Source: Deltaproteobacteria bacterium
GTDB taxonomy: Bacteria > Myxococcota > Myxococcia > SLRQ01
Direction: 5' to 3'
Assembly: GCA_029210625.1 (NCBI GenBank)
Contig: JARGFU010000016.1
Coordinates: forward strand, 1 to 64,000
Length of the DNA stretch: 64,000 bases
Every line of letters begins with the position of its first letter. The first letter of the stretch is position 1. A model generated the notes under the pieces. It saw only the letters and a list, made by a program, of their open reading frames with translations. It was not told where the DNA came from and did no database searches. Positions 2,101 through 42,731 of this stretch are shown one piece after another. The translations under genes and the position numbers were made by a program.

Positions 2101-5100
2101 TCAGCGGTTTAGGTAATCGCTGATCCGGCCCTCGAGGATGGAGAGGGGCTGGGTGTTGGTGGCGGTGTCGAACCAGGGCATCGGCCGGATCATCCGGCCG
2201 TTGTTGTTGATGCCCGTCCAGCTCCCGACCGAGTCCCAGACCGTCGCGCCCGCGTTGGTGGTGAGGAAGTGCACCGGGGGCCGGGTGAAGCCTCCCAGCC
2301 ACTCGTCGGCCTCGTAGCAGCGGCTCTTGCAGCGCCCCATGCCCCAGGACTCTCCGCCGAAGGTCACCGCGGCCAGGTCGGTGCCGAGGCTGGTGGCCGA
2401 CATCCGAAGCGGGGTCTGGAGGTTGTAGTAGGGGCTGGCCAGGAAGATGCCCCGCGACCACTCGTCGGTCGCGCCGCAGGAGACCTGCTCGTTGCACCAG
2501 GCCAGCTGGTTGCCCCGGGTGACGACGATGCGGTAGCGCAGACCCGAGGTCGTCGGCACCGGGTCGATCCGCATCGCCTTGGGGAAGGCGATGGTGCGGT
2601 TGCGGAAGATCGTCCCGAGGGAAGACCACTCCCCGGCGAGGTCGCAGCCGGTGGTCAGGGTGCAGCGGTAGAGGAAGGTGTCCAGGTTGGTCGGGTTCTC
2701 CCACTCGGGGGTCCAGTAGAGGTAGGTGCCCGCCATGATGGCGAGGGCGCCACCCTCGAAGCTCCGATCCCAGCGGACCGTGGTGAAGTCGGCGAGGGCA
2801 TCGCAGCCGGTGGACTGCTGACAGGAGGAGAGGTTCATCTGGCCGGTGAGCGGGGCCGCGCCCGCGTCGGTCAGGTCCCAGCTCAGGTAGACCCCGGTTC
2901 CGTCGGTCACCATCGAGATCGAGCGGGGCGCGACGTTCGGGGTCGGGACGGCGTCGGTCCCGGTGTCGTTGACGAGCCGGACCTCCTGGAAGTCGGTGGA
3001 GATCGTGCAGGCGGCGTCGATGGTCTTCCACTCGTACTCGAGGTTCTGGGGCTCGGTCGCGTAGGCGTAGGCGACGCTGACCCGGGTGTTGTCCATCGCG
3101 ATGGCCAGGTCGCCGATCATGTCCGGGCCGGGCGCCGAGCCCAGATCCCGTGCGTTCTCGAAGACCGCGGTCTTCCAGTTCGACTGCTGGCCGCAGTTGG
3201 AGCTCAGGGGGCAGGTGGCCACCACGACCTCGCCGGTGACCGGGACGTAGACCACGCCGTGGCAGTTCGAGTTGTTGGCGTACTTGGAGAAGGCGTCGCC
3301 GATGTCGGGGATCAGGTCGAAGACCTGCGCGGGCCAGGCGGTGAAGACCGGCTCGGCCGGTCCCTGGTCCAGTCCGCTGAAGCTCGAGACCACCCCGTGG
3401 TGGGCGGTGGCGTTGAGCGGCGGCACCGGGGTCCCCTCGCTCGCCAGGGTGGCGACGACCACGCTGGAGTCGAAGGGATCGGTGGCGACGGTGCCGTTGT
3501 AGTCGATGCGGTAGCCCTGGATGGAGCTCGTGTTCTGGGCCAGCCAGGAGGCCCGCATGCCGCCCGACTGGAAGTCGGGCAGCAGGGCCCGTCGCATGGG
3601 CGCCCGGGTGGGCGGCTCCATCAGGTAGGTCCGCACCTCGTCGGCGCCAGCGATGATCAGCGGGTTGCCGTCGATGTGGGTGACCAGCGCCTGCGGCCGC
3701 TGGAGGAGCCCCTCGAGGAGGGTGGAGGCGTTCCAGTTCGCGGCGACGCCGCAGTCGCTGGCGTGCGTGTTGCAGCGGGCGCCCAGCAGGTTGCGGGTGC
3801 CCAGGTCGATGGCGGCGGTGCTCAGGATCCCGGCGTGCCAGGTGAGCTGGGCGTCCTGGCCCTCCAGGCGGAACCAGGGTGAGGTGGTCAGGAAGCGGAC
3901 GTCCGCGGCCAGGTTCAGCTCGTAGAGCACGTCTCCGGCGGTGAAGTTCGCCGCGGAGGAGCAGGAGTAGGCGTTCCAGGTGAGCATCGGTGAGCCGATG
4001 TCGCAGGTCCAGAGCATGCCCTCGGCGGTGGTGGCGCCCTCGGCCAGGGAGTGGACGTAGAGCCGCTCGTCACCCTCCTTCACCGTGGTCGAGTAGTGAG
4101 CCCCGCTCCGGGTCCCCAGGTGGACCGCCCGCCAGGGCGTGGTGGTGCCGCAGTTCAGGGTGATCGGGCAGCCGCGCAGGACGGTGCTGTAGGTGCCCGC
4201 GCCGCTGTCGTAGGCGGTCTGGCTGATCCACATGTGGTTCTCCCCGATGTCGAGCTCCAGCGAGGTGTAGTCGTAGGGCCAGCCGATGCCGTTGACGCCG
4301 GCGGGGAGATCGATCGTCGTCGTCCCGGTCGCGATGGCGGCGGGGCCGGACCAGTCGCTGGCGTTCGTGCAGAAGGTGTCCAGGTAGCAGTAGTGGATGT
4401 TGGTCACCGGCGTCGCGCCGTTGACGTCGAGGTAGGCCACCGCGATGGCCTTGCCGCCGGCCGCCGCGTCGAAGGAGAGCCCGGAGGGCTCGGTCGAGGT
4501 CGCGCCGAGGCTCACGTAGTCCCAGTTGGCGACGTCTCCGATCAGATCCGGATCCTGATCGAAGTAGAGCGCCTCGAGGGTGTAGGCGCCGGGGGTGGTG
4601 CCCCGGATGGCGAAGATCCAGACGTGGCTGGCCCAGGAGGTGATCGAGATGGCGCGCAGGTCGGCGCCGCCCGGATCCCAGACCGAGAGGTTGAAGCCGG
4701 CCTCGCTGCAGGGCTGGTTGCGGCCGTCGCAGACGCCCAGCGCGATGCCGCTGCCCGAGGGGCTGATCCGGGGGATGAGGACCTGGCCGCGCCAGCTCAA
4801 GACCTGGTCGTGCCAGTCGGGCACCGAGGGCATGCCGGTGGTGACCGAGGGGGCGAGGCCCACGAAGGCCTCGATCAGCGCGCTCTCCGCGCTCTCGTTG
4901 CCCGCCTGGTCGAAGGCCGAGGCCCGGAACTCGTAGGGGCTGAAGGCCGGCAGCCCGGTCACCCAGTCGGAGGAGGAGGCGAGGTCCGCCGTCGCGATCT
5001 TGGGGCCGCCCTTCTGGTAGACGTGGATCCGGTAGTGATCGAAGCCCGAGCGGACGTCCGCGCCGCCGCTGACGTTGACCAGCGCCGAGGTCGTCCGCGG

Positions 5101-8100
5101 CGAGATGGCGTCGATCCGGGGGACGTCGGGCGGGGTCTGATCCAGCAAGATGTTGTCGGTGGCGTAGTTCGACTCGTTGCCGGCGGCGTCCCGGAGGATG
5201 ACGCCGACCCACTGGTTGCCGTCCCCGACGGGGAGGGTGAAGGCGTGGTCTTCACCGGGGGAGGCCGCCACGCAGGCGGCGGCGAGGCAGTTGGTCCAGG
5301 TGGCGCCGCCGTCGGTGCTGTACTGGGTCGCGTCCGCCGCCCAGAGGCTCAGGGTCACGCCGGTCACGTTGGTGAACTCGGCGCCGCCGTTGATGATCAG
5401 GCCCGGCGAGGTGGGCGCCGTCTCGTCGAGGGTGATCGTGTCGGAGAGGCTGGCGGAGACGTTGCCGGCCTGGTCACGGAAGCGGACGTAGACCGTCTTC
5501 AGGCCGTCGCCGGCCCGCAGGGTGTAGTCGAGGTTGACCGTCCCGCCGGCCGCGTAGGGCTGCCAGGCCACGCCGGAGAAGGTCGGGTCCTCGGCGATCT
5601 GCACCTCGAGGAAGGCCTGGCCGGTCATGTTGTCGAAGGCGCCGGAGATCCGCACGGTGAGGTCGCGGACCATGGTCAGGTTCTGGTTGTTCGACCCCTG
5701 GGCCTTGCCCCAGAGGTTGATCGTCGCGGCGCTGACATCGGGATCCACGTCGTCGAAGCGGATGGTGTCGGCGACGACCGTCGTGCGGCCGGCGACGTCC
5801 TTCAGGCAGACGTAGACCTTCTTCGTGCCGTTGACCGGGTCGAGGCTCCAGATCTTGGTCGAGGCGAAGGCCTCGAAGGGCGCCTGGGTGCAGGGGGCCG
5901 AGGTGTTCGACACCAGCATCTGGGTGACGTCCGCCGCGGCCGTCAGCGCGAGGTTGACGCTCTGGTTGGTGGTGTAGACGTCGTTGTCGTTGATGACCAC
6001 CGAGCCCGTCGGGTTCAGCGTGTCCAGGACGATCGAGTCGGAGTAGGCGCTGCGGTTGCCAGCCCGATCCAGGAGGCAGACCGTGACCGTCTTCGAGCCG
6101 TCCGGCGGGACGAGGCCGATGCTCACCGCCCCCGCGGGGGAGGTGGCCGGCGGGACGACCACGGTGTGGGAGGCCACCGGGATGAGGTTGCAGTCGAGGC
6201 TGCCGTTGGCGAGGTAGTAGCCGATGGTGTCGTTGGAGAAGGTGAGATCCACGCTCACCGTCGAGGTCTGGCTGTAGTCCGCGCCGCCGGCCAGCGCGAT
6301 CGTCCCGGTCGAGGGGACGGTGTCCAGCTCGATGCTGTCGGTGGACGAGGTCGTGTTCCCCGCGGCGTCCCGGAAGCAGGCCGTCACGTTCTTGGTGCCC
6401 TCTCCCGAGGGCAGGGTCCAGGTCTGGCTCGCCACGTAGGGCTGGTAGGCGGCCGTGGCGCAGACCAGGGAGGTGCCGTCCACGACGGAGATCTCCACGC
6501 TGCCGTCCCGGGGGCCGAACTGCAGGGAGACGTCCCGGCGGGTGGTGTAGCCGGGGAGGCCCGCGGTCGAGACGATGGTCAGAGCCGAGGTGGGGCTCAC
6601 GCGATCCAGGATGATGGTGGCCGAGGTGCTCGAGGTCCGGCCCGCGGCGTCCTTCACGCAGACCGAGACGGTCTTCGCGCCGTCGTTCCCGGGGATCAGG
6701 TCGGCCGGATCGAGATCGAAGCTGGCCACCGAGGGGGCGTAGGAGACGTAGGAGGCCGCGCCGCAGTCGATGGCGCCGTTCACGACCGCCATCTCGTCGA
6801 CGTCGGAGGCGGCCGTGAGGGAGAGGTCCACCGTGTCCGAGGTCGTGAAGGCGGCCCCGCCCGCGATCGTCAGGCTGACCGTCGGGTCCACGCGATCGAG
6901 GATGATGTCGTCGCTCTTGGCGACGGTCCAGCCAGCGGCGTCCTTGAAGCAGGCCACCACCGTCCGCAGGCCATCCTGATTCTGGAGGGGGTGGTTGTTC
7001 ACCGGGTTGACGAAGGGGCCGTAGGTGGCGCTCGAGCAGTCGAGGCTCTCGTTGCCGATGGCGACGGTGACGGTCTCGGGGGTCGTCAGGGTGAGGGTCA
7101 CCTGACCGCTGGCGTTCGTCGTGTAGGCGGCGCCGGCGTTGATGGTCAGGGTCGCGGTCGAGGGCGGGTTGGTGTCCAGGGTGATGGCGTCGCTGACCGA
7201 GGCGGTGTTGCCCGCGGCGTCCTTCAGGCAGACGCTGACGGTCTTGCTGCCCTCACCGGCCGGGAGGCTCCAGGCCCGAGCGGCCGAGAAGGGCTCGTAG
7301 GTCACGCTGCCGCAGAGGATCGTCCCGCCGTCGGCCACCGAGATCGCCACGACGTCGGCGGCGGCGGTGATGTCGAGGGTGACCGACTGGGTCCGGGTAT
7401 GGGAGGCGCCGCCGTTGATGGCGACGGAGCCCGAGGGCGCCACCGAGTCGACGAGGATGCTGTCCGAGGCGCTGGCGCGCAGGCCGGCGGCGTCCTCGAA
7501 GCAGACGCTCACGGAGCGCGTGCCCTGGCCGCCCAGGGTCAGCCCCTTGGTGGTGGCGAAGGCCTCCCAGACCAGGGTGCCGTCGCTGCAGACGATGCTG
7601 GCGGCCTCGCGGACCGCCATCAGGACGGTGTCCGCCGGGGCGGAGAGGTTGAGGGTCACGCCGGTCGAGGTGGCGTAGACCGCGCCGGCGTCGATGGCGA
7701 CGGAGCCCGCGGGCGGCGAGGTGTCGAGGGTGACCGTGTCCACCGCGGAGCCGCGGTTGCCGGCCACGTCCCGGAAGCAGGCGACGACGGTCTTCACGCC
7801 ATCACCGCTCGAGGGCGGGAAGGTGGTGCTGGCGGCGGTGGCGCCGGGGGTGACGCTGGTGTAGGTGGCGGCCGCGCAGTCGAGGGAGCCCTCGGCGATG
7901 GCGTAGCCATCGGTGTCGTCGGGGAAGGTCAGCGCCACCGCGAAGGGGGTCGAGGTCGCGTGGGCCTGTCCGCCGGCGAGGGTGATGGTCCCCGCGGGGG
8001 CCGAGGTGTCGAGGGTGATGGTGTCCGAGGCGGAGCCGGTGCGGCCGGCGGCGTCCCGGAAGCAGGCGGTGACGGTCTTGCCGCCGTCGCCGGCCGTGAG

Positions 8101-11100
8101 CACCCAGGTGCGCGGCGTGGTGAAGGGCCCGTAGCTGGCGGTGTCGCAGTCCAGGCTCGCGGCGTTGGCGATCGCGACCTCGGCGACGTCCGCCGGGGCC
8201 GTGAGGTCGAGGCTGACCACCGTGCTGGTGGTGTAGGCGGCGCCCGCCGCGATGCTCAGGGTGCCCGTGGTCGGGCTGGAGGTGTCGAGGATGATCGTGT
8301 CCGAGGCGGAGGCGGTGTTGCCGGCGCCGTCGCGGTAGCAGACGCTCACGGTCTTCGTGCCGTCGGCGCCCGGCAGGGGCCAGGTGAGGGAGGAGACGAA
8401 GGCCTGATAGGTCGCGCTGCCGCAGTTGATGGTGGCGCCGTCGGCGACCGCGAGCTGGGTGGTGTCCGACGGGGCGCTGAAGGTGAGGGTGACGCTGCTG
8501 TCGGTGTCGTAGAGGGCGCCGTTGTCGATGCTGACGCTCCCCACCGGGGCGCTGCGATCGAGGAGGATGGTGTCCTGCGCGGTCACGGCCCGGCCGCCGG
8601 CCTCCCGGATGCATGCCACGACGGTCTTCACCCCGTCGCCGCTCGAGATCGTGAAGGAGGTCGACGCGGAGGTGTTGCCCACGGTGACCGCGGTGTAGGT
8701 CGCGCTGCCGCAGTCGAGGGCGTTCTCGGCCAGGGCGTAGCCGTTGGTGTCGGCGAGGAAGGAGAGGCCGACCGCGACCGAGAGGTCGGCGCTGTAGGCG
8801 CTGCCCGCGTCGAGGCTGAGGGCGCCCGTCGGCGGGGCGGTGTCGAGGGTGATGGCGTCGGTGGTGCTGCTGGTGCGGCCGGCGGCGTCCTTGAAGCAGA
8901 CGCTGACGCTCTTGCTGCCGTCGGCGCCCGGGAGGGTGTGGGCGACGAGGCTGGCGAAGGGCTGGTAGCTGGCCGTGCCGCAGTTGATGGTCGCGCCGTT
9001 GGCGATGGCCAGGCTCGTGGTGTCCGGCGGAGCGGAGAGCGCCAGGCTCACGCTGGCGGAGAAGGTGTAGCCGGCCGGGGAGGCCACGAGGGTGTAGCCG
9101 CTGGTGTCACCCTGGATGGAGAGGGTCCCGGCCGGATCGGTGGTGTCGAGGGTGATGGTGTCCTGGGCGCTGGCGGTGAGGCCGGCCGCGTCCTTGAAGC
9201 AGACGCTGACGGTCTTGGTGCCGTCGGGGCCCGGCAGGGGCCAGGCCAGGGGGGAGGCGAAGCCCTGGTAGGTCGCCGTGCCGCAGTTGATGCTCGCGCC
9301 GTCGGCCACCGCCAGCTCGGCGGTGTCGGCGGGGGCGCTGAAGGCGAGGGAGGCGGCGCCCGTCGTGTTGTAGGTGGCGCCGAGATCGATGGTGATCGTC
9401 CCGGAGGGCGGCGTGGTGTCGAGGATGATGGTGTCGGCGCTCCAGGCGGTGTTGGTGGCCGCGTCGATGAAGCAGGCCGAGACGGTCTTGGTGCCGTCCC
9501 CGGCGGCGAGGGTGTGGGTCGTGCTCGCGGCCGTGTCTCCCACGGTGACCGGGGTGTAGGTGGCGGAGGCGCAGTCGATGACCCCGTCGCCCAGGGCGTA
9601 GCCGGTGGTGTCGTCGGGGAAGGCCAGGGCCACGGCCACGGTGGTCCCGGTGGTGTAGGCGACGCCGGCGGCGAGGGTGATCGTGCCCGTGGGGCTGGAG
9701 GCGTCGAGGATGATGATCGCCGAGGTGGTGCCGGTGCGTCCGGCGGCGTCCCGGAAGCAGGCCACCAGGTTCTTCGAGCCGAGGGCCGCGGAGAGCGTGA
9801 AGGCCATCGAGGGGGTGTAGGGCTGGTAGGCGGCCGTGGCGCAGTCGAGGGTGGCGGCCTCTCGCACCGCCAGGCCCGTCACGTCGGTGGAGGCGGTGAA
9901 GTCGAGGACCACGGACGCGGTCTGGGTGTGGGTCGCGCCGGCGTCGATGGTCATCGAGCCGGTGGGGTTCGCCGTGTCGAGGGTGATCGTGTCGCTGGCG
10001 CTGTCCCGGTTGCCGGCGGCGTCCTCGAGGCAGGCGGTGACGGTCTTGAGGCCGTCGCCCGCGGAGAGGGACCAGGTGAAGGGAGAGGAGAAGCCCACGT
10101 AGGTGGCCGTGGCGCAGTCGAGGGTCGCGGCGTTGGCGATCGACATCCGGGCGGTGTCGGCCGGGACGGCGAAGCGCAGGGAGACGGTGGTGCCGGTGGC
10201 ATAGGTGGCGCCGCCGTCGATGGTGACGGTGCCCGAGGGCAGGCCGGTGTCGAGGATGATGGCCGCGGAGGTGGAGATCACCCGGCCGGCGGCCTCCCGC
10301 ACGCAGGCGACGACCGTCTTGGTGCCGTCTCCGGCGGAGAGGGTGAAGCTGGTCGAGGCCGAGGTGTTGCCGATGGTGACGGCGGTGTAGGTCGCGTTCG
10401 CGCAGTCGAGGGACGACTCGGCCAGGGCATAGCCGCTGGTGTCGTCGAGGAAGGAGAGCCCCACGGCGACGCCGAGATCACGGGTGTAGGCGGCGCCGGA
10501 GTCGAGGGTCAGCCCCAGGGTGGGCGGCGCGGTGTCGAGGGTGATCGAGGCGCTGGTCGAGGCCGTGTTCCCGGCGGCGTCCTTGAAGCAGACGCTGACG
10601 TCCTTGGAGCCGTCGCCCGCCGGCAGGGTGTGGGGGATCACGCCGGCGAAGGCCCGGTAGGTGGCGGTGTTGCAGTCGAGGGTCGGGCCGTCCGCCAGGG
10701 CGACCTGGGTGGTGTCGGCGGGCGCGGAGAGCAGAGCCTGCACCGCCGGCGAGAAGGTGTAGCCCGTGCCGCTCCCGGCGAGGGTGTAGCCCGAGGTGTC
10801 ACCCTGGAGGGCGATCGTCCCGGCGGGGAGGGTGGTGTCCAGGACGATCTCGTCCTGCAGGGGCGCGGTGTTCCCGGCGGTGTCCTCCAGGCAGCCGTAC
10901 ACCGTCCGGGTGCCGTCGCCGGCGGCGAGGGTCCAGGCCCGGCTCGGGGCGAAGGCCTGCCAGCCGGTGGCGGCGTCGCAGTCGGCGATGGCCGTGTTCG
11001 AGAAGGTCATCCGGGCGGTGTCGCCCGGCGCCACGATCTCGAGCTGCACGCCCACGGCGTCGGTGTAGAGCGCGCCCCCGTCGATCGCGAGGGTGCCCAC

Positions 11101-14100
11101 CGGGGCGGTCTGGTCGAGGGTGATGGTGGTGGCGTAGGAGGCGGTGTTGCCCGCGCCGTCCTCGAAGCAGACGACCAGGGTCTTCACGCCGTCCCCGGCC
11201 GGCAGGCTCCAGGTGGTGGAGGTGCTGGTGCCGGTGGTGCCGGTGTAGGTGGCGACGCCGCAGTCGAGGGCGCCGTTGGCCAGGGCGTAGCCGGCCGTGT
11301 CGCTCGAGTGGGTGAGGTCCACCGAGACGGAGACGGTGTCCGTGACGGCCGCGCCGGCGTCGAGGACGATCGAGCCGGCGGGGACGGTCGTGTCCAGGAC
11401 GATCGTGTCCGCCGCGCTGCCGGTGCGGCCGGCGGCGTCCCGGAAGCAGACCGTGACGGTCTTGGTGGCGTCGCCGCCGGTCAGGACCCAGGAGCGCACG
11501 CTGGCGAAGGGCTCGTAGGTGGCGGTGCCGCAGTCGAGGGCGCCGTTGCCCACGGCCATGTGGGTCACGTCGGCGTCGGCGGTGAGGGTGAGGGTCACCG
11601 GGGTGTTCGTGGCGTAGGCGGCGCCGCCGTCGATGGCCACGCTGCCGCCGGTGGGGTCGGTGGTGTCGAGGACGATCTCGTCCTGGACGGCGTAGGTGTT
11701 GCCGGCGGCGTCGCGCAGGCAGGCGTGGACGGTCTTGGTGGCGTCGCCGGTGGCCAGGGTCCAGGCCCGGGAGGGGCTGTAGCCCGAGTAGCCGGTGGCG
11801 GTGTCACAGTCGGCGATGGGGCTGTTGGAGATGAGCGCGTCGGCGGTGTCGGCCGGGGCGGTGAAGCTCAGCACGACCGCGGTGCCGGTGGCGTAGGTCC
11901 GGTCGCCGTCGATCCGCAGGGTGCCGACCGGGGCCTCCCGGTCGACGATGATCGTGCCGGCGGCGTTGATCACGTTGCCCACCGCGTCGGTGAAGCGGAC
12001 GTAGAGGGTCGCCAGGCCGTCCACCGGCTCCAGGGTCCAGCCGGGGATGGCGTGGGAGGCGTCGGGCACGCCGCCGGTCGCCGGCCAGGGATCGGTCTGG
12101 CTGGTGGTGAAGCCCGGATCGTTGGAGAGCTGCACCGAGGCCATCCCCGAGCTGGCGTCGGTCGCCGCCAGGACGAGATCGACCGTGAGGTCGCGGGTGT
12201 AGCTGCTGCCGCCGTCGAGGGTGACCGCGACGCCGGTCGGGGCCTGCCGATCGAGGGTGACGCTGACCTGGCCGCTGCCGATGTTGCCGGCGATGTCCCG
12301 CACCTCGACGTGGACGGTGTGGAGCTGATCGACCGGGGGCAGGGTCCAGTCGAGGGCGGCGGCGAAGGGCTGCCAGATGGCGCCGGCGAAGTCGGCGCGG
12401 TTGGCGATCCGCATCTGGGCGGCGTCGGCCGGGTCGGAGACCGTGATGGCCAGGCTCACCTGGGGGATGCCGGTGTGGGTGACGAGGCCCGAGCCACCGT
12501 CGATGCGGGCCGCCTGCGAGGTGAGGACGACGCCCGTCAGGGTCGGGGAGGTTCCGTCGAGGACGACGTCCACGCTCGCCGGAGGCGAGAGGTTGCCGGC
12601 GGCGTCACGCAGGGTGACGATCACCCGCTGGCGGCCCTCGGTGGTGTCGAGCGTGAGGACCTGCGAGGGGGAGTAGGTGCCCCAGGTCATGGCGGTGCGG
12701 CGGATCGTCTCGTTGCCCGAGGCGTCCAGCATGGCCACCTCGATCATCATCTCGTGGCCGTCGAGGGGCCCGGGGATCGCGGTGGTCAGGAGGGTGACGT
12801 TGGTGGCCGTCACGTGGGTGAAGCCGGTGACCGGATCGGTCACGCCGTCGGCGAGGCGCGCGCCGGCGACGGTCGGGTTGCTCTGATCGACGATCACGCT
12901 GGCCGAGAGGGTGGCCGAGCGGTTGTCGGCGTCGTCCCGGAACTGGGCGTAGATGGTGTGCGAGCCCTCCGCCAGCGGGGGCGGGGTGGGGGCCGGCAGG
13001 CTGACGGGCCAGTAGTAGTTGGTGACGTAGCCCACCCAGGGCTCGGGGTTGCCGGCGGCGTCGAGGAAGCTCGGGTTCTTGGAGAAGACCATCTGGGTCG
13101 AGTCGGCCGCCGAGACGCGCAGCCGCAGGTTCCCCGAGCTCGAGTACTGGATGGGGACCCCGCCGGTGTCGACGATGTCGAAGGCCAGCGCGATCGGCAG
13201 CGCCCGGTCGAGGACGATGTCGTCGAAGAGGGCCTGGGTGATGTTCCCGGCGGCGTCCATGAACTGCACCCAGACCTCCTTGGTGCCGTCGGTCTGGGCG
13301 TCGAGGAACCAGGTGATCTGCGGCGAGAAGGGCTGCCACTGGGCGCCGAGGAAGGCCGAGTCGTTGGCCAGGCGCATCTGGATGCCGGGGTAGTCGTCGG
13401 TGGCGGTGAGCGAGACCGAGACCCGATCCGAGCGGGCGAAGGCGTCACCGTTGTTGATGCTCACCGAGATGCCGGCGGGGGGCTGCCGGTCGAGGATGAA
13501 GCCCGCCGAGACCGGCGCGCTCCAGTTGCCCGCCCGATCCGAGAAGGTGACCCAGATCTCCTTCGCGCCGTCGGCGAGGGGATCGAGGGTCGCGTGGTCG
13601 ATCGTCCGGTTGTAGGGCTGGGCGATCGCGGCATCCCAGTCGGCCTGGAGCGGCGGGCAGGGCGGGGCGCCGCAGAGGGTGGGATCGAGGTCGACGAACT
13701 TCACCGAGGCGAGACCGCTGGTCACGTCCACGCCGGGCGCCGGCGCCTCGCTGGCGGTGAGGGTGGTGAGCACCGACCCGTCGAGGTCGTTGGAGAAGCC
13801 CGAGCCGTCCTCGACGACGATCGTGGGCTGCAGGGGCGCCGTCTGGTCGAGGACGACCGTGCCCTGGATGAGGCCGGAGAAGGCCCCGTTGCCGTAGACC
13901 TGGGCGGTGACCTCGTGGGTGCCCTCGCTGGAGGTGAGGGTGAAGGTGCCGGTGACGGAGTAGGCCACCCAGCCGCCGTTGGTGCCCGGATCGGGGTTGG
14001 AGGGGTCGCCCTGGGTGGAGAAGACCGAGGGGTCCTCCGAGATCCGCATGTGGGTGGTGCCGGCCGGGGCGTCGAGCTGGTAGCCCACGCCGAGGGTGTT

Positions 14101-15423
14101 CACGTAGGGGAAGCCGCCGTTGAGGGTCAGGCCGCCCTGCTGGCGCTCGAGGACCGGGTCGTTGCCCGCGGCGTCGGTGACCCGGGTGTCCTGCCCGGCG
14201 GTGACGGCGAGGCCGCTGATCGAGGTGGTGACGTAGCCGTCGCGGCTCGCGACGATCTCGTAGCCGGTGCCGGCGCAGACGCCCGGGATGCGGAAGGAGC
14301 CGTCGGCGGCGGTGAGGGTCACGAAGTTGGTGCCGTTGACCTGCACCAGGATGCCGCTGTGGTCGGCGGCGCCCGAGAGCTCCATCCGGCCCATGATGGC
14401 GCCGCGGGAGGCGGCGAGGCGGATCATCCCGAGGTCGGTGAGCTGCCCGGCCGACACCTGGTTGTTGCGGATGGTGACCGTCTCCCAGCCGTCGAGGGCG
14501 AGGTCGACGCGATAGGAGCCGGCGGCGAGCCCGCCGAGGGTGAAGGCGCCGGTGGGATCCGCCACGGCGTTGTGGGTGGTCGCCGTCCCCACGCCTCCGG
14601 TGATCAGCACGCCGTCGCCGGCCTCGTAGCTCACCGGCGGGGTGGCGGTGCAGAGCTCGCGCTCGACCGTGCCGATGATGGCGCCCGGGTTGGAGAGGAG
14701 GATCAGGGGGTCGGCCTGGGGGGTCGAGGTGTCGCCGTCGAGGGCGACGGTCTCGCCGACGCCGACGGTGATCCCGGAGAGGACGAGGGTCTCGTAGTTC
14801 GGGAAGGAGATCTCGAAGTCGAAGGTGCCGTCGGAGATCGGGAGGTTGAAGGTGCCGTCCGGCGCCGTGAGCACGTCGAAGGGCCACCCGACGGTCCGCA
14901 CCGAGATGCCGCCGTGCTCGGGAGCGAGGGGGTCGCGGCCCTCGAGGAGCACGAGGCCGGTCACCGCCGAGGGGGCGGTCTCGACGGTGGACACCAGCTC
15001 GATGATCCCGAGGTCGACGTTCGCCGCCAGGGGCACCGCGACGCTGCGCAGGGTCACCGCGGCGAAGCCCGGCTCGGCGACCTCCAGGCGGTAGATGCCC
15101 GGCGCCACGTCGGGGAAGAGGAAGATGCCCTCGGCGTCGGTCCGGGCCGTGCGCTCGCTGGCCGGCGCCTCGCCGCCGTCGGTGCCGGTCGCGGGCGCCT
15201 CCTCCTCCAGGAAGATGCGCACCAGGATGTCCTCGTTCGAGGCGCGGGCGGGCAGGGCCGGGCGCCCCGGCGCGTTCACGCCGCCACGGACGGTGGCCGG
15301 CGCGGGGGTCGAGCCCTCGGGGTCGAAGGGGTTGTCCCGTACGCTGATGTCGGAGTCGCAGCCCCCGACCATCAGCAGCAGCGCCATCGAACCAAAGAAC
15401 CATCCCGAACGAAGCAGCTTCAT
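2101..15423 (-). CDS. Giant (~4,440 aa) repetitive Ig-like lipoprotein
   Basis: Lipoprotein signal 1-22 (lipobox MVGGC, +2 Asp); about four carboxypeptidase-regulatory-like domains to ~430; about 30 Ig-like units of ~94 aa from ~520 to ~3430, each with an LDxxxPxG opening strand, a GDGxKxVxVCFxDAAG closing strand and an acidic hinge; an Fn3-like unit ~3430-3520; then ~900 aa with repeated C..C..W hairpins, perhaps beta-propeller blades. Units 7-28 (~1160-3220) each carry exactly two Cys at fixed places, suggesting one disulphide per unit, whereas flanking units have none. I chose the ATG at 15423, preceded by GGGAGAGG and matching the paralogue's start; the frame stays open 26 codons further upstream. 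A secreted adhesin or fibrous stalk protein is inferred from architecture; no ligand motif was recognised. Confidence 0.9.
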   Translation of the reverse strand: MKLLRSGWFFGSMALLLMVGGCDSDISVRDNPFDPEGSTPAPATVRGGVNAPGRPALPARASNEDILVRIFLEEEAPATGTDGGEAPASERTARTDAEGIFLFPDVAPGIYRLEVAEPGFAAVTLRSVAVPLAANVDLGIIELVSTVETAPSAVTGLVLLEGRDPLAPEHGGISVRTVGWPFDVLTAPDGTFNLPISDGTFDFEISFPNYETLVLSGITVGVGETVALDGDTSTPQADPLILLSNPGAIIGTVERELCTATPPVSYEAGDGVLITGGVGTATTHNAVADPTGAFTLGGLAAGSYRVDLALDGWETVTIRNNQVSAGQLTDLGMIRLAASRGAIMGRMELSGAADHSGILVQVNGTNFVTLTAADGSFRIPGVCAGTGYEIVASRDGYVTTSISGLAVTAGQDTRVTDAAGNDPVLERQQGGLTLNGGFPYVNTLGVGYQLDAPAGTTHMRISEDPSVFSTQGDPSNPDPGTNGGWVAYSVTGTFTLTSSEGTHEVTAQVYGNGAFSGLIQGTVVLDQTAPLQPTIVVEDGSGFSNDLDGSVLTTLTASEAPAPGVDVTSGLASVKFVDLDPTLCGAPPCPPLQADWDAAIAQPYNRTIDHATLDPLADGAKEIWVTFSDRAGNWSAPVSAGFILDRQPPAGISVSINNGDAFARSDRVSVSLTATDDYPGIQMRLANDSAFLGAQWQPFSPQITWFLDAQTDGTKEVWVQFMDAAGNITQALFDDIVLDRALPIALAFDIVDTGGVPIQYSSSGNLRLRVSAADSTQMVFSKNPSFLDAAGNPEPWVGYVTNYYWPVSLPAPTPPPLAEGSHTIYAQFRDDADNRSATLSASVIVDQSNPTVAGARLADGVTDPVTGFTHVTATNVTLLTTAIPGPLDGHEMMIEVAMLDASGNETIRRTAMTWGTYSPSQVLTLDTTEGRQRVIVTLRDAAGNLSPPASVDVVLDGTSPTLTGVVLTSQAARIDGGSGLVTHTGIPQVSLAITVSDPADAAQMRIANRADFAGAIWQPFAAALDWTLPPVDQLHTVHVEVRDIAGNIGSGQVSVTLDRQAPTGVAVTLDGGSSYTRDLTVDLVLAATDASSGMASVQLSNDPGFTTSQTDPWPATGGVPDASHAIPGWTLEPVDGLATLYVRFTDAVGNVINAAGTIIVDREAPVGTLRIDGDRTYATGTAVVLSFTAPADTADALISNSPIADCDTATGYSGYSPSRAWTLATGDATKTVHACLRDAAGNTYAVQDEIVLDTTDPTGGSVAIDGGAAYATNTPVTLTLTADADVTHMAVGNGALDCGTATYEPFASVRSWVLTGGDATKTVTVCFRDAAGRTGSAADTIVLDTTVPAGSIVLDAGAAVTDTVSVSVDLTHSSDTAGYALANGALDCGVATYTGTTGTSTSTTWSLPAGDGVKTLVVCFEDGAGNTASYATTITLDQTAPVGTLAIDGGALYTDAVGVQLEIVAPGDTARMTFSNTAIADCDAATGWQAFAPSRAWTLAAGDGTRTVYGCLEDTAGNTAPLQDEIVLDTTLPAGTIALQGDTSGYTLAGSGTGYTFSPAVQALLSAPADTTQVALADGPTLDCNTATYRAFAGVIPHTLPAGDGSKDVSVCFKDAAGNTASTSASITLDTAPPTLGLTLDSGAAYTRDLGVAVGLSFLDDTSGYALAESSLDCANATYTAVTIGNTSASTSFTLSAGDGTKTVVACVREAAGRVISTSAAIILDTGLPSGTVTIDGGATYATGTTVSLRFAVPADTARMSIANAATLDCATATYVGFSSPFTWSLSAGDGLKTVTACLEDAAGNRDSASDTITLDTANPTGSMTIDAGATHTQTASVVLDFTASTDVTGLAVREAATLDCATAAYQPYTPSMAFTLSAALGSKNLVACFRDAAGRTGTTSAIIILDASSPTGTITLAAGVAYTTGTTVAVALAFPDDTTGYALGDGVIDCASATYTPVTVGDTAASTTHTLAAGDGTKTVSACFIDAATNTAWSADTIILDTTPPSGTITIDLGATYNTTGAASLAFSAPADTAELAVADGASINCGTATYQGFASPLAWPLPGPDGTKTVSVCFKDAAGLTASAQDTITLDTTDPAGTLSIQGDTSGYTLVASPAGYTFSASVSLALSAPPDTTSLAIANGATINCGTASYQPFASLVAHTLPGADGSKSVSVCFKDAAGRTSSTTDAITLDTAPPTGALSLDAGSAYSADLSVAVGLSFLADTNGYALAENALDCGSATYTAVTVGNTSASTSFTISSGDGVKTVVACIREAGGRAVTAQDTILLDRSAPVGSVSIDNGALYDTDSSVTLTFSAPSDTTQLAVADGATINCGSATYQAFVSSLTWPLPGADGTKTVSVCYRDGAGNTASASDTIILDTSSPTTGTLSIAAGAAYTTSTVVSLDLTAPADVAEVAIANAASLDCDTASYGPFTTPRTWVLTAGDGGKTVTACFRDAAGRTGSASDTITLDTSAPAGTITLAGGQAHATSTPFAVALTFPDDTDGYAIAEGSLDCAAATYTSVTPGATAASTTFPPSSGDGVKTVVACFRDVAGNRGSAVDTVTLDTSPPAGSVAIDAGAVYATSTGVTLNLSAPADTVLMAVREAASIVCSDGTLVWEAFATTKGLTLGGQGTRSVSVCFEDAAGLRASASDSILVDSVAPSGSVAINGGASHTRTQSVTLDITAAADVVAISVADGGTILCGSVTYEPFSAARAWSLPAGEGSKTVSVCLKDAAGNTASVSDAITLDTNPPSTATLTINAGAAYTTNASGQVTLTLTTPETVTVAIGNESLDCSSATYGPFVNPVNNHPLQNQDGLRTVVACFKDAAGWTVAKSDDIILDRVDPTVSLTIAGGAAFTTSDTVDLSLTAASDVDEMAVVNGAIDCGAASYVSYAPSVASFDLDPADLIPGNDGAKTVSVCVKDAAGRTSSTSATIILDRVSPTSALTIVSTAGLPGYTTRRDVSLQFGPRDGSVEISVVDGTSLVCATAAYQPYVASQTWTLPSGEGTKNVTACFRDAAGNTTSSTDSIELDTVPSTGTIALAGGADYSQTSTVSVDLTFSNDTIGYYLANGSLDCNLIPVASHTVVVPPATSPAGAVSIGLVPPDGSKTVTVCLLDRAGNRSAYSDSIVLDTLNPTGSVVINDNDVYTTNQSVNLALTAAADVTQMLVSNTSAPCTQAPFEAFASTKIWSLDPVNGTKKVYVCLKDVAGRTTVVADTIRFDDVDPDVSAATINLWGKAQGSNNQNLTMVRDLTVRISGAFDNMTGQAFLEVQIAEDPTFSGVAWQPYAAGGTVNLDYTLRAGDGLKTVYVRFRDQAGNVSASLSDTITLDETAPTSPGLIINGGAEFTNVTGVTLSLWAADATQYSTDGGATWTNCLAAACVAASPGEDHAFTLPVGDGNQWVGVILRDAAGNESNYATDNILLDQTPPDVPRIDAISPRTTSALVNVSGGADVRSGFDHYRIHVYQKGGPKIATADLASSSDWVTGLPAFSPYEFRASAFDQAGNESAESALIEAFVGLAPSVTTGMPSVPDWHDQVLSWRGQVLIPRISPSGSGIALGVCDGRNQPCSEAGFNLSVWDPGGADLRAISITSWASHVWIFAIRGTTPGAYTLEALYFDQDPDLIGDVANWDYVSLGATSTEPSGLSFDAAAGGKAIAVAYLDVNGATPVTNIHYCYLDTFCTNASDWSGPAAIATGTTTIDLPAGVNGIGWPYDYTSLELDIGENHMWISQTAYDSGAGTYSTVLRGCPITLNCGTTTPWRAVHLGTRSGAHYSTTVKEGDERLYVHSLAEGATTAEGMLWTCDIGSPMLTWNAYSCSSAANFTAGDVLYELNLAADVRFLTTSPWFRLEGQDAQLTWHAGILSTAAIDLGTRNLLGARCNTHASDCGVAANWNASTLLEGLLQRPQALVTHIDGNPLIIAGADEVRTYLMEPPTRAPMRRALLPDFQSGGMRASWLAQNTSSIQGYRIDYNGTVATDPFDSSVVVATLASEGTPVPPLNATAHHGVVSSFSGLDQGPAEPVFTAWPAQVFDLIPDIGDAFSKYANNSNCHGVVYVPVTGEVVVATCPLSSNCGQQSNWKTAVFENARDLGSAPGPDMIGDLAIAMDNTRVSVAYAYATEPQNLEYEWKTIDAACTISTDFQEVRLVNDTGTDAVPTPNVAPRSISMVTDGTGVYLSWDLTDAGAAPLTGQMNLSSCQQSTGCDALADFTTVRWDRSFEGGALAIMAGTYLYWTPEWENPTNLDTFLYRCTLTTGCDLAGEWSSLGTIFRNRTIAFPKAMRIDPVPTTSGLRYRIVVTRGNQLAWCNEQVSCGATDEWSRGIFLASPYYNLQTPLRMSATSLGTDLAAVTFGGESWGMGRCKSRCYEADEWLGGFTRPPVHFLTTNAGATVWDSVGSWTGINNNGRMIRPMPWFDTATNTQPLSILEGRISDYLNR
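7455..9150 (-). repeat. Six-unit super-repeat, copy 2
   Basis: Units 17-22 of the giant lipoprotein, repeating the order of units 11-16: the QGDTSGYT-insertion unit, a GYALAE unit with the shared stretch TAVTVGNTSASTSF, two ordinary units, a GYAIAE unit and an ordinary unit. Boundaries are approximate. Confidence 0.7.
9150..10850 (-). repeat. Six-unit super-repeat, copy 1
   Basis: Units 11-16 of the giant lipoprotein. The block opens with a unit carrying the odd insertion QGDTSGYT, then a GYALAE-type unit, two ordinary units, a second GYALG-type unit and an ordinary one. The same order recurs in units 17-22. The shared DNA segment GTGTCACCCTGGA lies at 10796 here and at 9104 in copy 2, a spacing of 1,692 bp. 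Confidence 0.7.
13509..15423. repeat. Tandem-duplicated gene head, copy B
   Basis: Copy B of the duplicated lipoprotein head: signal peptide, carboxypeptidase-regulatory-like domains and first Ig-like units. It aligns base for base with 1-1915 at a constant offset of 13,508. The alternation of near-identical and clearly diverged blocks fits past gene conversion between the two neighbours. Confidence 0.85.
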
Positions 15424-15484: not shown

Positions 15485-15620
15485 TCACTCGACCAGCCCA
15501 CTATCCTAAACCAGAAATCACGATCTCTGGTTTAGTTCAGCCGGGGGCCGTCCACAGGTGAGGAAGATCACCTCCGCCCAGAGATTTCGGGCGCTTGGGG
15601 TGCGGACCGGGGCCTCGTGC

Positions 15621-16805
15621 TCAGCGTGCCTGGCGGTCGTGGCGGACCCCCCCGGGCTCGAAGACCAGGGGGATCTCCAGGGTGACCACCGAGGTGGCGG
15701 GGGGGAAGCGGACATCGAGGAGGTTGTTCGCCAGGCAGGCCGTGACCTCGGGGGTCTGCAGCTCGTCGACCAGGAAGGTCCCGTCGAAGATCACTCCGTC
15801 GGTGCCGTAGCTGACCTCGGCGACCATCCGCCCCTGCAGGGCGGGGTGGTTCTTCAGGCCCCGCTCGTAGCAGCTCTGGAAGATGGGCAGGTGGCGGCCG
15901 ACGATGGTGGCGAGGAGGGCCGGATCGGGGCCGGGATCCTCGGCAACGGGCTCGGGCAGGGGCTCGGGCTCCGGCGCGGGCTCCTCGGCGGCCCGGCGCG
16001 GCCGCCGGAAGTGCTGGCGCGGCGGCGCGGGCTCCTCGGCGGCGGCCACCGCCACCGGCTCGGAGGGGAAGGTCTCGCGCAGGCGGGCGAAGCGCGGGCT
16101 GGTGGCCTCCACGGCCTCGACCCGCTCCGCGGTGGAGCGGGCCTGCTCGCCGGCGCCCACCAGGATCGAGTGCCCGGCCCGGTCGACGACCTCGACGGTC
16201 CCCTTCTGCACCCCCACCTCGGTGCGGTCCGCCTGGACGTCCACGAAGAAGATCGTCCCCCGGATGATCGCGTCACCGTGGGGGGTGCGCACCCGCAGGG
16301 GCCGCTGGCCGGGCCGGCGCTGGTAGCGGGCGAGGACGGCCTGGGCGCCCAGGTGGATCACCGGCCCCTCGTCGCTCTCCTCGAAGCGCACCTGCGCCGC
16401 CTCGGTGGCGAAGGCCTCGATCCCCCGCTGGGTCTCGAGCCACCCCTCCTGCACCGGCAGGGGCTCGGGCAGGGAGAGGACGAGGAGGAGGGCGGCGGCC
16501 GCGGCGGCGAAGCCCGTGGCGGGCGCCCAGACCACCGGCCGCCGCCAGAAGGGAGCGCGCTGCTGCTCGTGCTCGAGCCGCTCGTGGATCTGGCCCAGAA
16601 TCTGCCGCTTCCGGGTGTCGGTGAGGGGCTCGGGGCCGGCGCGGGCCGTGCGCTCGAGCTCGCTCTCGAAGGCGAGCTCCGCCTTGCAGGAGGCGCAGCC
16701 GGCGAGGTGGACCTCGACCCGCTGGCGCTGGAGGGGCGTCACCTCGCCGGCGCGGTAGGCGATGAGCAGCTCGCGGACTTCCAGGCAGTGAGAACGATCG
16801 TTCAT
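15621..16805 (-). CDS. Anti-sigma factor: zinc finger, TM, FecR domain and TonB/AgmX-like C-terminus
   Basis: 394 aa. The N-terminus has a ZAS-type zinc-binding HxxxCxxC (VHLAGCASC, ~35-45), typical of anti-sigma factors. A single TM segment follows near 100-120 (FAAAAAALLLVLSLP), then a FecR-like beta domain (~150-240, with RTPHGDAIIRGT), a Pro/Glu-rich spacer rich in PEPEPLPEP, and a C-terminal domain (~290-385) like the AgmX/TonB-type domain of myxobacterial proteins (IFQSCYERGLKNHPALQGR). The ATG overlaps the sigma gene's stop as ATGA, so translation is coupled. Likely role: inner-membrane sensor holding the ECF sigma factor. Spanning the periplasm through the Pro-rich linker is inference. 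Confidence 0.8.
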   Translation of the reverse strand: MNDRSHCLEVRELLIAYRAGEVTPLQRQRVEVHLAGCASCKAELAFESELERTARAGPEPLTDTRKRQILGQIHERLEHEQQRAPFWRRPVVWAPATGFAAAAAALLLVLSLPEPLPVQEGWLETQRGIEAFATEAAQVRFEESDEGPVIHLGAQAVLARYQRRPGQRPLRVRTPHGDAIIRGTIFFVDVQADRTEVGVQKGTVEVVDRAGHSILVGAGEQARSTAERVEAVEATSPRFARLRETFPSEPVAVAAAEEPAPPRQHFRRPRRAAEEPAPEPEPLPEPVAEDPGPDPALLATIVGRHLPIFQSCYERGLKNHPALQGRMVAEVSYGTDGVIFDGTFLVDELQTPEVTACLANNLLDVRFPPATSVVTLEIPLVFEPGGVRHDRQAR

Positions 16806-17374
16806 GCGCTTGCTCTCCCACGGGCCTGCAGGCGCCGCTCGAGCGCGCGCCGCACTTCCTTGCGGGCGGCGCGTAGCCGCGACGCCACCGTGTTCACCGA
16901 GGCCTCGGTCAGCTCGGCGATCTCCTCGAGGGTGTGCCCTTCCACGTGGTAGAGCACGAAGACGATCCTCTTCTTGGGCTTCACCTCGCCGACGATCCCG
17001 TGGAGGAGCTCCAGCTTCTCCCGCCGCCCGGCGGCGTCGTCGGGGGCGGCCGGGCCGGCCGGCTCGAGCGCCGGCCGCAGGCTCTCGGGCTCCTGCCCGA
17101 AGCGCAGCCAGCGCTGCCGCTTGCGCAGGTGCATCAGGGCGACATTCAGGGCGACCCGGTGCAGCCAGGTGGCGAAGGCGCACTCGCCGCGGAACTCTCC
17201 GATCTTCCCGTGGATCTGCAGGAAGGTCTGCTGGATCAGGTCGTCGAGCTCGGGGTCGGGCCCCACCACGGCGTGGAGCTTGCGGTGCACCCGGTCGACG
17301 TACGCGTAGTAGAGCTCGTCGAAGGCTCCGGGGCGCCCCTCCTGGACGCGGGTGATGAGGTCCATGTCTCGCAT
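16802..17374 (-). CDS. ECF-family RNA polymerase sigma factor
   Basis: 190 aa, the normal length for a group 4 (ECF) sigma factor. Region 2 is seen around 10-80 (FDELYYAYVDRVHRKL, then DDLIQQTFLQIH and FATWLHRVALN) and region 4 around 120-180, with an HTH (HTLEEIAELTEASVNTVASR). A flexible Pro/Ala linker joins them. It overlaps the downstream anti-sigma gene by 4 bp. The ATG at 17374 was used; a second ATG at 17365 is equally possible as neither has a strong ribosome site. It directs RNA polymerase to an unknown regulon, probably including its own promoter just upstream. Confidence 0.9.
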   Translation of the reverse strand: MRDMDLITRVQEGRPGAFDELYYAYVDRVHRKLHAVVGPDPELDDLIQQTFLQIHGKIGEFRGECAFATWLHRVALNVALMHLRKRQRWLRFGQEPESLRPALEPAGPAAPDDAAGRREKLELLHGIVGEVKPKKRIVFVLYHVEGHTLEEIAELTEASVNTVASRLRAARKEVRRALERRLQARGRASA

Positions 17375-21771: not shown

Positions 21772-22757
21772 CACTCCTCCCAGATCCGCTCGACGTCCTG
21801 CGCCTTCATCTGGGGCTTGCCCTTGTACTGGCTGACCTTGCCCTTCACGTAGATCAGCTTCCCCTTCCACTTCTCGTACTCGATCTTCGCGAGCTCCTCG
21901 TCGTCGAAGGCGACGATGATGAAGTCGTTGCGGTTCCGGTGGGAGAGGGGCAGGAGGTAGGGCTTCTTGTCGAGGCGCCCCTCCCCGAAGGAGGAGAAGA
22001 CCGTCACGGTCTTCCCCAGCTGCTCGCCGGCCCGCTTCAGGCCGTCGTCGGCCATCAGGTCGATGAGGGTGGGGTCCTTCGCGGCCTTCGCCCGGAAGCG
22101 GTCGATGGTCTGGGCGCGCTCCTCCCACCAGGCGAGGCGCTCGTCGTAGTCGGGGTAGTGCTTGAGCGCGTCGCTCCAGATGCCCCGGTGGGCGATGCGG
22201 GCCTCCTCCTGCGCCGCCTTGAACTCGGCGTCGAAGCGCACGCAGCGCCCGTACTTCGTGAAGTAGGGGGCCATGCCGGCGCGGACGGCCTCCAGGTTGT
22301 AGTTCACCCACTTCCCGTCCTTCTTCGCGAAGACGTAGACCAGGTGCCGCTCGTAGAAGCCGCGGGTGCGGCTGGCCTCGTCCCGCTCGAGGCGGACCTC
22401 CTTCACGCCCTTGAAGAAGCGCGCCGCCCACTCCTTGGCCAGCTCACCCAGGGGCGTCCCGTACTTCTTCGGCCGCTCGCCCTCGCCGCGCATCGCCTTC
22501 GCGTAGGCGGGGAAGTCCCGGTCGGAGGCCGCCTTGTTCTTGGGCTTCTTGAAGGTCTCCTCGGTGTCGATGCAGAGCAGGCGCAGGCTGGCGTCGAGGC
22601 CCTTCACCCGGATGGTGTCCCCGTCGATCACGGCGTCCTTGGGCTTCCCCTTCAGGGGGAAGACACCCAGCACCAGGGGGTCGGCTTCCTCGGCCTCGGT
22701 CCGGAGCGGAGTGGCGAGGAAGAGCACGCAGAGGGCCAGGAGCATCGGATTTCGCAT
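21771..22757 (-). CDS. Secreted staphylococcal-nuclease-like protein
   Basis: 328 aa. Signal peptide MRNPMLLALCVLFLATPLRT. The SNase domain spans ~30-190, with DGDTIRV, the catalytic Arg in LRLLCIDTEET, and RGFYERHLVYVF. The C-terminal ~70 residues (DDEELAKIEYEKWKGKLI, VKGKVSQYKGKPQ) look like an OB-fold domain. It likely cuts extracellular or periplasmic nucleic acid with Ca2+, though the middle region diverges from the classic nuclease. It ends on TGATG with the GH31 gene, so the two are translationally coupled. Confidence 0.8.
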   Translation of the reverse strand: MRNPMLLALCVLFLATPLRTEAEEADPLVLGVFPLKGKPKDAVIDGDTIRVKGLDASLRLLCIDTEETFKKPKNKAASDRDFPAYAKAMRGEGERPKKYGTPLGELAKEWAARFFKGVKEVRLERDEASRTRGFYERHLVYVFAKKDGKWVNYNLEAVRAGMAPYFTKYGRCVRFDAEFKAAQEEARIAHRGIWSDALKHYPDYDERLAWWEERAQTIDRFRAKAAKDPTLIDLMADDGLKRAGEQLGKTVTVFSSFGEGRLDKKPYLLPLSHRNRNDFIIVAFDDEELAKIEYEKWKGKLIYVKGKVSQYKGKPQMKAQDVERIWEE

Positions 22758-22833
22758 CGCGAGCGAGCCTATCGCACCGCCTCTGAAAAAAAGATCACAA
22801 AACCCGGGACCGCCGGCATCGAACCAGATGAGT

Positions 22834-22852
22834 GACCGGGAGAGGCCCGGTC
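22834..22852. other. Inverted repeat upstream of the TSP3 lipoprotein gene
   Basis: GACCGGG - AGAGG - CCCGGTC, a perfect 7-bp stem in the divergent interval between the nuclease and TSP3 lipoprotein genes. It may be an operator or mRNA leader hairpin; no T-run follows. Confidence 0.3.
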
Positions 22853-22935
22853 GCGACAGCAAAAGCACACCGCTCACCGCGCGCCGCGAGCTTGAGAAGA
22901 GCAGCCCGGCGCGACGGTCACGGAGGGAGTCTGTC

Positions 22936-42284: not shown

Positions 42285-42731
42285 ATGATCACCCTCGACC
42301 AGAACGCCGTCCGGCTCCTCATCGAATTCATGGAGGAGCAGATCCCCTTCAACAAGCACCTCGGGCTGAAGTGCACCGCCCTCGAGGAGGGGAAGGCGAG
42401 GCTGGAGATCCCCTTCCAGGAGTTCCTCATCGGCGACCCCTTCCGGCCGGCGCTGCACGGCGGCGTGATCTCCACGCTGGCCGACACCTGCGGCGGCGCC
42501 GCGGTCTTCTCGCTCTTCGACAACGTGAACGATCGCACCTCCACGGTGGATCTCCGGGTGGACTACCTGCGGCCCGGCCTCCGGGAGACCCTCATCGCCG
42601 AGGCCGAGGTGATCCGCGCGGGCAACAAGGTGGCGGTCGTCGACGTCGTGGTCTTCCACCCCGACCGGAAGGGCGAGCCCGTCGCCACCGCCAAGGCGGT
42701 CTACAACCTGAAGAGAGCCAGCGAGGGATGA
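42285..42731 (+). CDS. PaaI/YbgC-like hotdog-fold thioesterase
   Basis: 148 aa. The hotdog motif HGGVISTLADTCGG carries the usual active-site region, and FNKHLGLKC / DLRVDYLRPGLRE complete the PaaI-type pattern. It hydrolyses acyl- or aryl-CoA thioesters. The ATG is only 21 bp from the divergent DUF2330-like start. It overlaps the methyltransferase gene by ATGA, forming an operon with it and the DNA glycosylase. Confidence 0.85.
   Translation: MITLDQNAVRLLIEFMEEQIPFNKHLGLKCTALEEGKARLEIPFQEFLIGDPFRPALHGGVISTLADTCGGAAVFSLFDNVNDRTSTVDLRVDYLRPGLRETLIAEAEVIRAGNKVAVVDVVVFHPDRKGEPVATAKAVYNLKRASEG

Follow-up and report, generated by a model that had tools for sequence, protein, structure and literature searches.

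Why should 22 consecutive immunoglobulin (Ig)-like units of one giant bacterial lipoprotein each carry exactly two Cys residues at the same two positions, and what kind of structure would such an array build? The question is raised by the first 64,000 nucleotides of contig JARGFU010000016.1 (C16 below; assembly GCA_029210625.1) from a deltaproteobacterium of the phylum Myxococcota, the stretch that we call the window, and specifically by a very long gene on its minus strand. In the reading that we favour, and hold with moderate confidence, the product is a lipoprotein of great length that sits at the cell surface and belongs with the giant Ig-like adhesins, and its stalk carries an exchangeable putative recognition head. 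One intradomain disulfide per two-Cys unit is well supported by the sequence patterns of the array and its relatives.

Layout of the giant lipoprotein

The open frame runs from 15501 to 2101, and its product of 4,440 amino acids likely starts at the ATG at 15423 (Table 1). Coding in this frame is supported by a third-position GC of 0.97, which also rules out a frame artefact as the source of the Cys pattern. Starting from the membrane anchor, the protein comprises four base domains, about 30 Ig-like units in register, an FN3 domain and a C-terminal region of some 900 residues. The N-terminal lipobox LMVGG-C was spotted by eye in the sequence; its layout is common to a tandem twin of the gene at the contig edge (see below) and to relatives, among which the motif C-x(n)-NP[FY]DP recurs, and the attachment to a membrane through a lipid on Cys22 proposed earlier is backed by this lipobox and by the same layout in the twin.

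Every one of the units u7 to u28 (22/22) holds two Cys and no more, one in the column ..LDCxxATY.. and one in ..TVxxCFxDAAG.., with a spacing of 28-38 residues; neither column varies over the 22 rows of the alignment. The run of 22 consecutive two-Cys Ig-like units reported by the first-pass annotation, which had been made from the letters alone, is borne out by the unit parse and these invariant columns, and the coordinates given for it (5745-11950) are right to ~20 bases, the parse placing it at 5764-11952. The same annotation described units 1-6 and 29-30 as Cys-free ends, which is only roughly true: the conserved pair is indeed absent there, but u1 (CGAPPC) and u30 (CLAAAC) each hold one other pair outside the two conserved columns, and Cys also occur beyond the array. 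In total the protein has 73 Cys, i.e. the lipid-bearing Cys22 and an even 72, of which 22 lie in the C-terminal head. The base region holds one pair, C258 and C383, at a distance of 125 residues; it is kept in one related locus (L030), both residues are absent in another (L031), and a possible reading is an interdomain disulfide.

At the family level, the whole protein reaches 101.3 bits with Pfam Big_13 (PF19077; gathering threshold 27, E 5e-29); no single stretch passed the E cut-off for this family alone, as expected for diverged repeats. One stretch matches NCBIfam NF047446 ('OmpL47-type', E 2e-12), which was the only hit of the NCBIfam scan at E up to 0.01, TIGR04201 having no match in the protein, and no RTX or T1SS (type 1 secretion) domain is found among its Pfam matches. 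AlphaFold modelled u19-u21 with a predicted local distance difference test (pLDDT) score of 97.4 and a predicted template modelling score of 0.85, placing the first Cys in the C-C' segment and the second in strand F; the long extended array envisaged earlier is backed by this model. Its top Foldseek matches are SiiE, the tetra-repeat of a large adhesin, the ice adhesin of M. primoryensis and GhpA of Aureispira.

A Cys pair kept or lost as one

The mean identity among the window units is 40-50%, with higher-order periods of three and six units, and their sequences point clearly to multiplication by block duplication. Because its units are mutual duplicates, the window alone is weak evidence for the Cys pattern, which was therefore tested on relatives. 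A profile built from the 22 Cys units of the window, with relatives taken at E <= 1e-8, found matches in 20 of the 147 genomes of the class and, at the level of the phylum, in 35 of 195, and the Cys statistics cover 403 units from 36 Myxococcota loci; being made from Cys units, the profile may under-sample Cys-free ones, which leaves the parity of the Cys counts unaffected. Giant frames occur among these relatives (5,982 amino acids in L041 and G184; 3,444 in L042 and G185).

Cys stands in both columns in 167 units and in neither in 144; only three have the second Cys alone and 50 the first alone, the remainder being gapped, and 47 of those 50 contain exactly two Cys, i.e. have another possible partner for the first. 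Counted per unit, there are no Cys in 144 units, one in 14, two in 217, three in six, four in 19 and six in three, an even number in 383 of the 403, and surplus Cys tend to occur pairwise. Joint presence or absence of the two conserved Cys is strongly non-random (Fisher p about 4e-53, on units that are not independent). The proposed profile search of Myxococcota thus found relatives in which the two Cys columns are retained, and the Cys of related units are not randomly placed, as they might have been had the idea been wrong. A chance origin of the pattern is ruled out by the recurrence of the same two columns across the phylum at about 30-50% identity.

Other pairs also exist in the relatives' units, at other positions and with spacings of 12 and 7-9 residues. 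In another family of the same class (L038, L039 and L040), the Ig-like units have their own fixed pair of Cys at a spacing of 12 residues (VLCTTTANASGAWSC), which is, judged by its pattern, a putative alternative one-disulfide-per-unit design. The order of units along the array of L092 is an almost perfect alternation of Cys-pair and Cys-free ones. On a tree of 324 units, the Cys state changed jointly 35 times (29 for column 49, 24 for column 77), but hardly any branch had support, and the tree was given no weight on whether the Cys events were independent.

Do the two residues also behave as if they touched each other? Among all pairs of columns separated by four or more positions, the highest score is that of Cys49-Cys77, both by mutual information with average product correction (z 11.3) and by mean-field direct coupling analysis (z 10.7), where it stands out despite a shallow set of effectively 310 sequences. 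By the nearby couplings (40-77 and 38-79 by both methods, 54-77 by mutual information, 54-79 by direct coupling analysis), column 77 lies next to the C strand and the C' segment. Of the 167 units with both Cys, 98 have Ala in column 40, where Cys-free units most often have Arg (30/144); such a switch would be expected of a bond that takes the place of an exposed polar contact. The disulfide suggested earlier for each Ig-like unit is thus backed by three lines of evidence, namely joint presence and absence, even counts and the top coevolving pair, all of which argue for a bond within the domain.

Surface stalk or periplasmic tether?

A structural disulfide does not by itself place the protein on the cell surface. 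Outer-membrane lipoproteins by default face the periplasm, and the strongest of the rival explanations makes of the giant lipoprotein a periplasm-facing tether or sensor and no surface stalk; its lipobox has Asp at +2, and the protein carries no recognised surface-export signal. In Myxococcus xanthus, extracellular-matrix lipoproteins are marked by an Ala at +7 (PMC3222651), and this too is missing here. We nevertheless consider this explanation unlikely, since the array alone should exceed 100 nm, far beyond the width of the periplasm, since the heads are of recognition type, with a carbohydrate-binding domain in one paralogue, and since the relatives by fold are surface adhesins. Several observations do count against a surface stalk with a disulfide in nearly every unit and a recognition head at its tip. 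Val replaces Ala at +7 and Asp occupies +2, which leaves the sorting of the lipoprotein uncertain; the AlphaFold model of the head is all-beta with a mean pLDDT of only 62; and although DSBA-family proteins are encoded in the same genome, a search of that genome for VKOR as their reoxidant found none, DsbB not having been searched for.

The remaining rivals concern the Cys themselves. Might they bond between neighbouring units or molecules, and so cross-link stalks into a cable or sheet? Both Cys appear to sit at or close to the outer surface of the C-F sheet and might be reachable from outside, but the pairing within units is strong, the two are absent together, and the counts stay even also where both neighbours of a unit are Cys-free, as along L092, all of which makes cross-linking very improbable. 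Nor do we give much weight to the notion that the pairs are neutral relics of unit duplication without mechanical meaning: the 3- and 6-unit periods do speak for multiplication of the units in blocks, but the retention of the pairs at about 30-50% identity in many families, and their being invariant within the array and almost never half-lost, render it a very doubtful account. Finally, a metal or cofactor site in place of a disulfide, for which it can be said only that paired Cys can serve as metal ligands, is extremely unlikely in an exported protein whose 22-unit alignment has no conserved His or third or fourth ligand and whose relatives carry pairs at other positions and spacings, as expected of disulfides.

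What stiffens the rod?

The first-pass annotation had the disulfides stiffen the rod and the Cys-free ends flex. This part of its proposal is not supported, because bonds within a domain do not lock the joints between domains, and the answer may rather lie in Ca2+. In sequence searches of the PDB, the 22-unit profile by itself gave nothing useful, whereas a three-unit profile matched SiiE (2YN3) at E 3.5e-12, with all three of its type-I Ca2+ Asp aligned, the interdomain site being that defined in PMC5466336. In the window Cys units, the Asp of this triad are found in 22/22 (linker), 20/22 (before the C strand) and 20/22 (F-G turn). The linker Asp and the F-G Asp are equally conserved in Cys and Cys-free units, which argues against a stiff Cys-bearing rod with flexible ends, as does L092, where the alternation of the two kinds of unit means that Cys-free units are not merely ends. 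Joint stiffness is tentatively assigned to Ca2+ because the Asp triad of SiiE is kept; it is more likely that Ca2+ at the linkers would stiffen the rod, with the disulfides resisting unfolding or proteolysis of each unit.

Heads, paralogues and the twin

The far end of the protein and its family, neither of which was mentioned in the earlier annotation, bear on what the stalk may be for. The head contains nine hairpin Cys pairs, CX(3-7)C, and Foldseek of its model (pLDDT 62) gave partial matches to propeller+FN3 ectodomains and to single propellers (template modelling score, by target, up to 0.56), from which a beta-propeller type is probable. Near its whole length, this Cys-hairpin head occurs in three proteins of the genome as well as in further Myxococcota. 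Those proteins with it whose arrays were read are Ig-array proteins, most of which went into the head profile; the one on G157 is a new match.

Paralogues in the same genome lie on four other contigs, C40, C8, C10 (two) and C1. Those of C8 and C10, whose starts are covered, have the lipobox, the NP[FY]DP motif, the base and the Ig array in common. The heads differ by paralogue: Cys-hairpin (window, C40, C8), LVIVD, FG-GAP and one without a Pfam match, the C8 protein (L029) ending in a CBM6/CBM35 carbohydrate-binding domain.

The tandem twin is cut by the contig end. Bases 2-1915 encode its start, which is 63-93% identical to the first copy in 100-residue blocks; the last 55 bases at the edge of the window contig equal the first gene near 13509, and the first 55 bases of C40 equal it ending at 11977. 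Such exact 55-base overlaps are what remains when an assembly graph with k=55 collapses two identical stretches (here u2-u6) into one, and the twin would most likely consist of the C16 end, the collapsed stretch and C40 (L028), with 28 Cys-pair units. Block by block, the proximal stalks are mostly 74-94% identical and the distal units 67-77% and then 27-44%, and within the head region similarity can be detected for the FN3 alone. Either twin's head is closer to heads from another family (L099; E 1e-41 and 4e-20) than to that of the other twin (E 3e-4), which suggests either head exchange on a common shaft or very fast divergence of the head.

How the stalk might work

Taken together, a working model can be sketched. 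Oxidation by periplasmic DsbA-type enzymes would turn each Cys pair into a single disulfide within its domain, between the C-C' segment and strand F. These bonds would keep each unit from coming apart under a pulling force or by protease; the extended shape of the chain would be due to Ca2+ held between units at an Asp triad like that of SiiE. An Ig-like unit measures roughly 4 nm, which would make the 22 units about 80-90 nm long and the whole array 110-130 nm. The lipid would hold the base in the outer membrane, the head would be shown at the far tip and bind a carbohydrate or protein partner, and alike stalks with very different heads, as in the twin and the paralogues, would allow heads to be exchanged or diversified within the lineage while the shaft stays the same. 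One may go further and imagine Myxococcota-wide interchangeable surface 'lances', i.e. disulfide-locked, Ca2+-jointed and lipid-anchored shafts whose twins and paralogues recombine shafts, which thereby remain similar, and exchange heads, giving many heads per cell for, e.g., prey capture or kin recognition; this is a speculative extension that we think rather unlikely.

Genomic neighbourhood

Directly upstream of the giant gene lie genes for a zf-HC2 anti-sigma/FecR protein and a sigma factor of the extracytoplasmic function (ECF) type, and co-regulation of the giant gene with this pair is possible. In a window of 71% GC, AT-rich inverted repeats at 15506-15535 and about 2080-2115 flank the giant gene; both are, by their sequence, putative terminator- or operator-like elements. 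Farther away, 22507-24117 (+) encodes a protein with five stretches of bacterial TSP3 repeats, typically a Ca2+-binding type of repeat, and 42371-44266 (+) has N6-methylase, Eco57I and TaqI_C matches, as in a restriction-modification type methylase.

Table 1. The giant gene, its parts, its neighbours and the related loci.
Feature	Position	Strand	Basis
N-terminal part of second copy (MKTLRAGWFFGSLLLLLVVGGC...NPFDP), cut by contig end	2..1915	-	Sequence; likely continues on C40 (L028)
Giant lipoprotein gene, 4,440 amino acids, likely ATG at 15423	2101..15423	-	Open frame; third-position GC 0.97
C-terminal head with CX(3-7)C hairpins; probably two parts with beta-propeller-like blades, separated by a second FN3-like stretch	2104..4851	-	Nine hairpin Cys pairs; AlphaFold; Foldseek
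FN3-like domain (u31 in parse)	4852..5151	-	PF00041, E 1e-5
u29 (Cys-free) and u30 (other pair, C3379/C3384)	5152..5763	-	Unit parse
u7-u28, 22 consecutive two-Cys Ig-like units	5764..11952	-	Unit parse; Big_13 PF19077; u19-u21 model, pLDDT 97.4
u1-u6, Ig-like, without the conserved Cys pair (u1: separate CGAPPC pair)	11953..13857	-	Unit parse
Base, four carboxypeptidase-regulatory-like beta-sandwich domains	13860..15360	-	Pfam PF13620 x4, E 1e-32
Lipoprotein signal peptide MKLLRSGWFFGSMALLLMVGG + C22, then family motif NPFDP	15358..15423	-	Sequence
Perfect inverted repeat CTAAACCAGA(AATCACGATC)TCTGGTTTAG, between FecR gene and giant gene	15506..15535	.	Sequence
zf-HC2 anti-sigma/FecR protein, upstream gene	15621..16811	-	PF13490, PF04773; sequence
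ECF-type sigma factor, upstream gene	16802..17374	-	PF04542, PF08281
L029, L030, L031, L032			Related Ig units; heads Cys-hairpin + CBM6/35, LVIVD, none by Pfam, FG-GAP, in that order

Comparison with known giant surface proteins

How new, then, is such a stalk? Force-bearing shafts are reinforced by Ca2+ between domains in Gram-negative adhesins, and by isopeptide or ester bonds inside domains in Gram-positive adhesins and pili. If the proposal is true, a Gram-negative shaft with a disulfide in nearly every unit and a conserved Ca2+-type joint would be another design, in which Cys and Cys-free units side by side in one protein offer a natural comparison, and twins that have a similar stalk but not the same head point to a way in which predatory or social bacteria could diversify their surface recognition. 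Literature searches, which covered open-access papers, returned no description of an Ig-like shaft with a disulfide per unit. The window units match Big_13 (PF19077), and one stretch also NF047446 ('OmpL47-type'); to our knowledge, paired Cys are not a described feature of either family, and the Cys pair looks like an elaboration within this domain class.

Several giant or repetitive surface proteins resemble the window protein in part. GhpA, the 'grappling hook' of Aureispira, is also a giant extracellular protein, and Foldseek matches several of its cryo-electron microscopy fragments, but the likeness stays at the fold level, with 12-14% identity over the match. The repeats of LigA and LigB of Leptospira belong to Big_2, another Ig-like family than that of the window units, and we know of no per-unit Cys pair in them. 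Common to the two and the window protein is a large number of Ig-like repeats, in LigA and LigB borne by proteins of the cell surface (PMC7821625). Periscope proteins, repeat-built surface proteins of variable length in whose description Big_13/PF19077 is named (PMC9704523, PMC8201768), likewise present a terminal binding domain on a shaft of tandem domains; their length switching from strain to strain, however, runs between near-identical repeats, whereas the window units average only 40-50% identity. TraA of Myxococcus xanthus (PA14 head, TIGR04201 repeats, MYXO-CTERM) is a myxobacterial surface recognition protein whose Cys-rich tandem repeats were proposed to act as a rigid stalk (PMC3325183), but its repeats are unrelated to the window units, its anchor is a C-terminal MYXO-CTERM in contrast to an N-terminal lipid, and its head is another one.

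The closest parallel, and the nearest relative of the fold with a solved structure, is SiiE of Salmonella enterica, with 53 bacterial Ig-like (BIg) domains (PDB 2YN3/2YN5), and with it the giant BIg/RTX shafts (MpAFP RII, MhLap, BapA-type). The likeness to this group lies in the fold and in the long chain of Ig-like units of about 90-100 residues, and that to SiiE extends to a sequence alignment in which the three Ca2+ Asp are kept. Unlike SiiE, a type 1 secretion substrate, the window protein has an N-terminal lipoprotein signal; it adds a large, probably propeller-type, head, and most of its units have a disulfide-type pair, whereas no Cys pair per unit is described for SiiE in PMC5466336. 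The 'new class of surface stalk' of the first-pass annotation is therefore too strong a term: what is found here is the familiar shaft of giant Ig-like adhesins in a reinforced form, with a Cys pair per unit, an N-terminal lipid anchor and large heads added.

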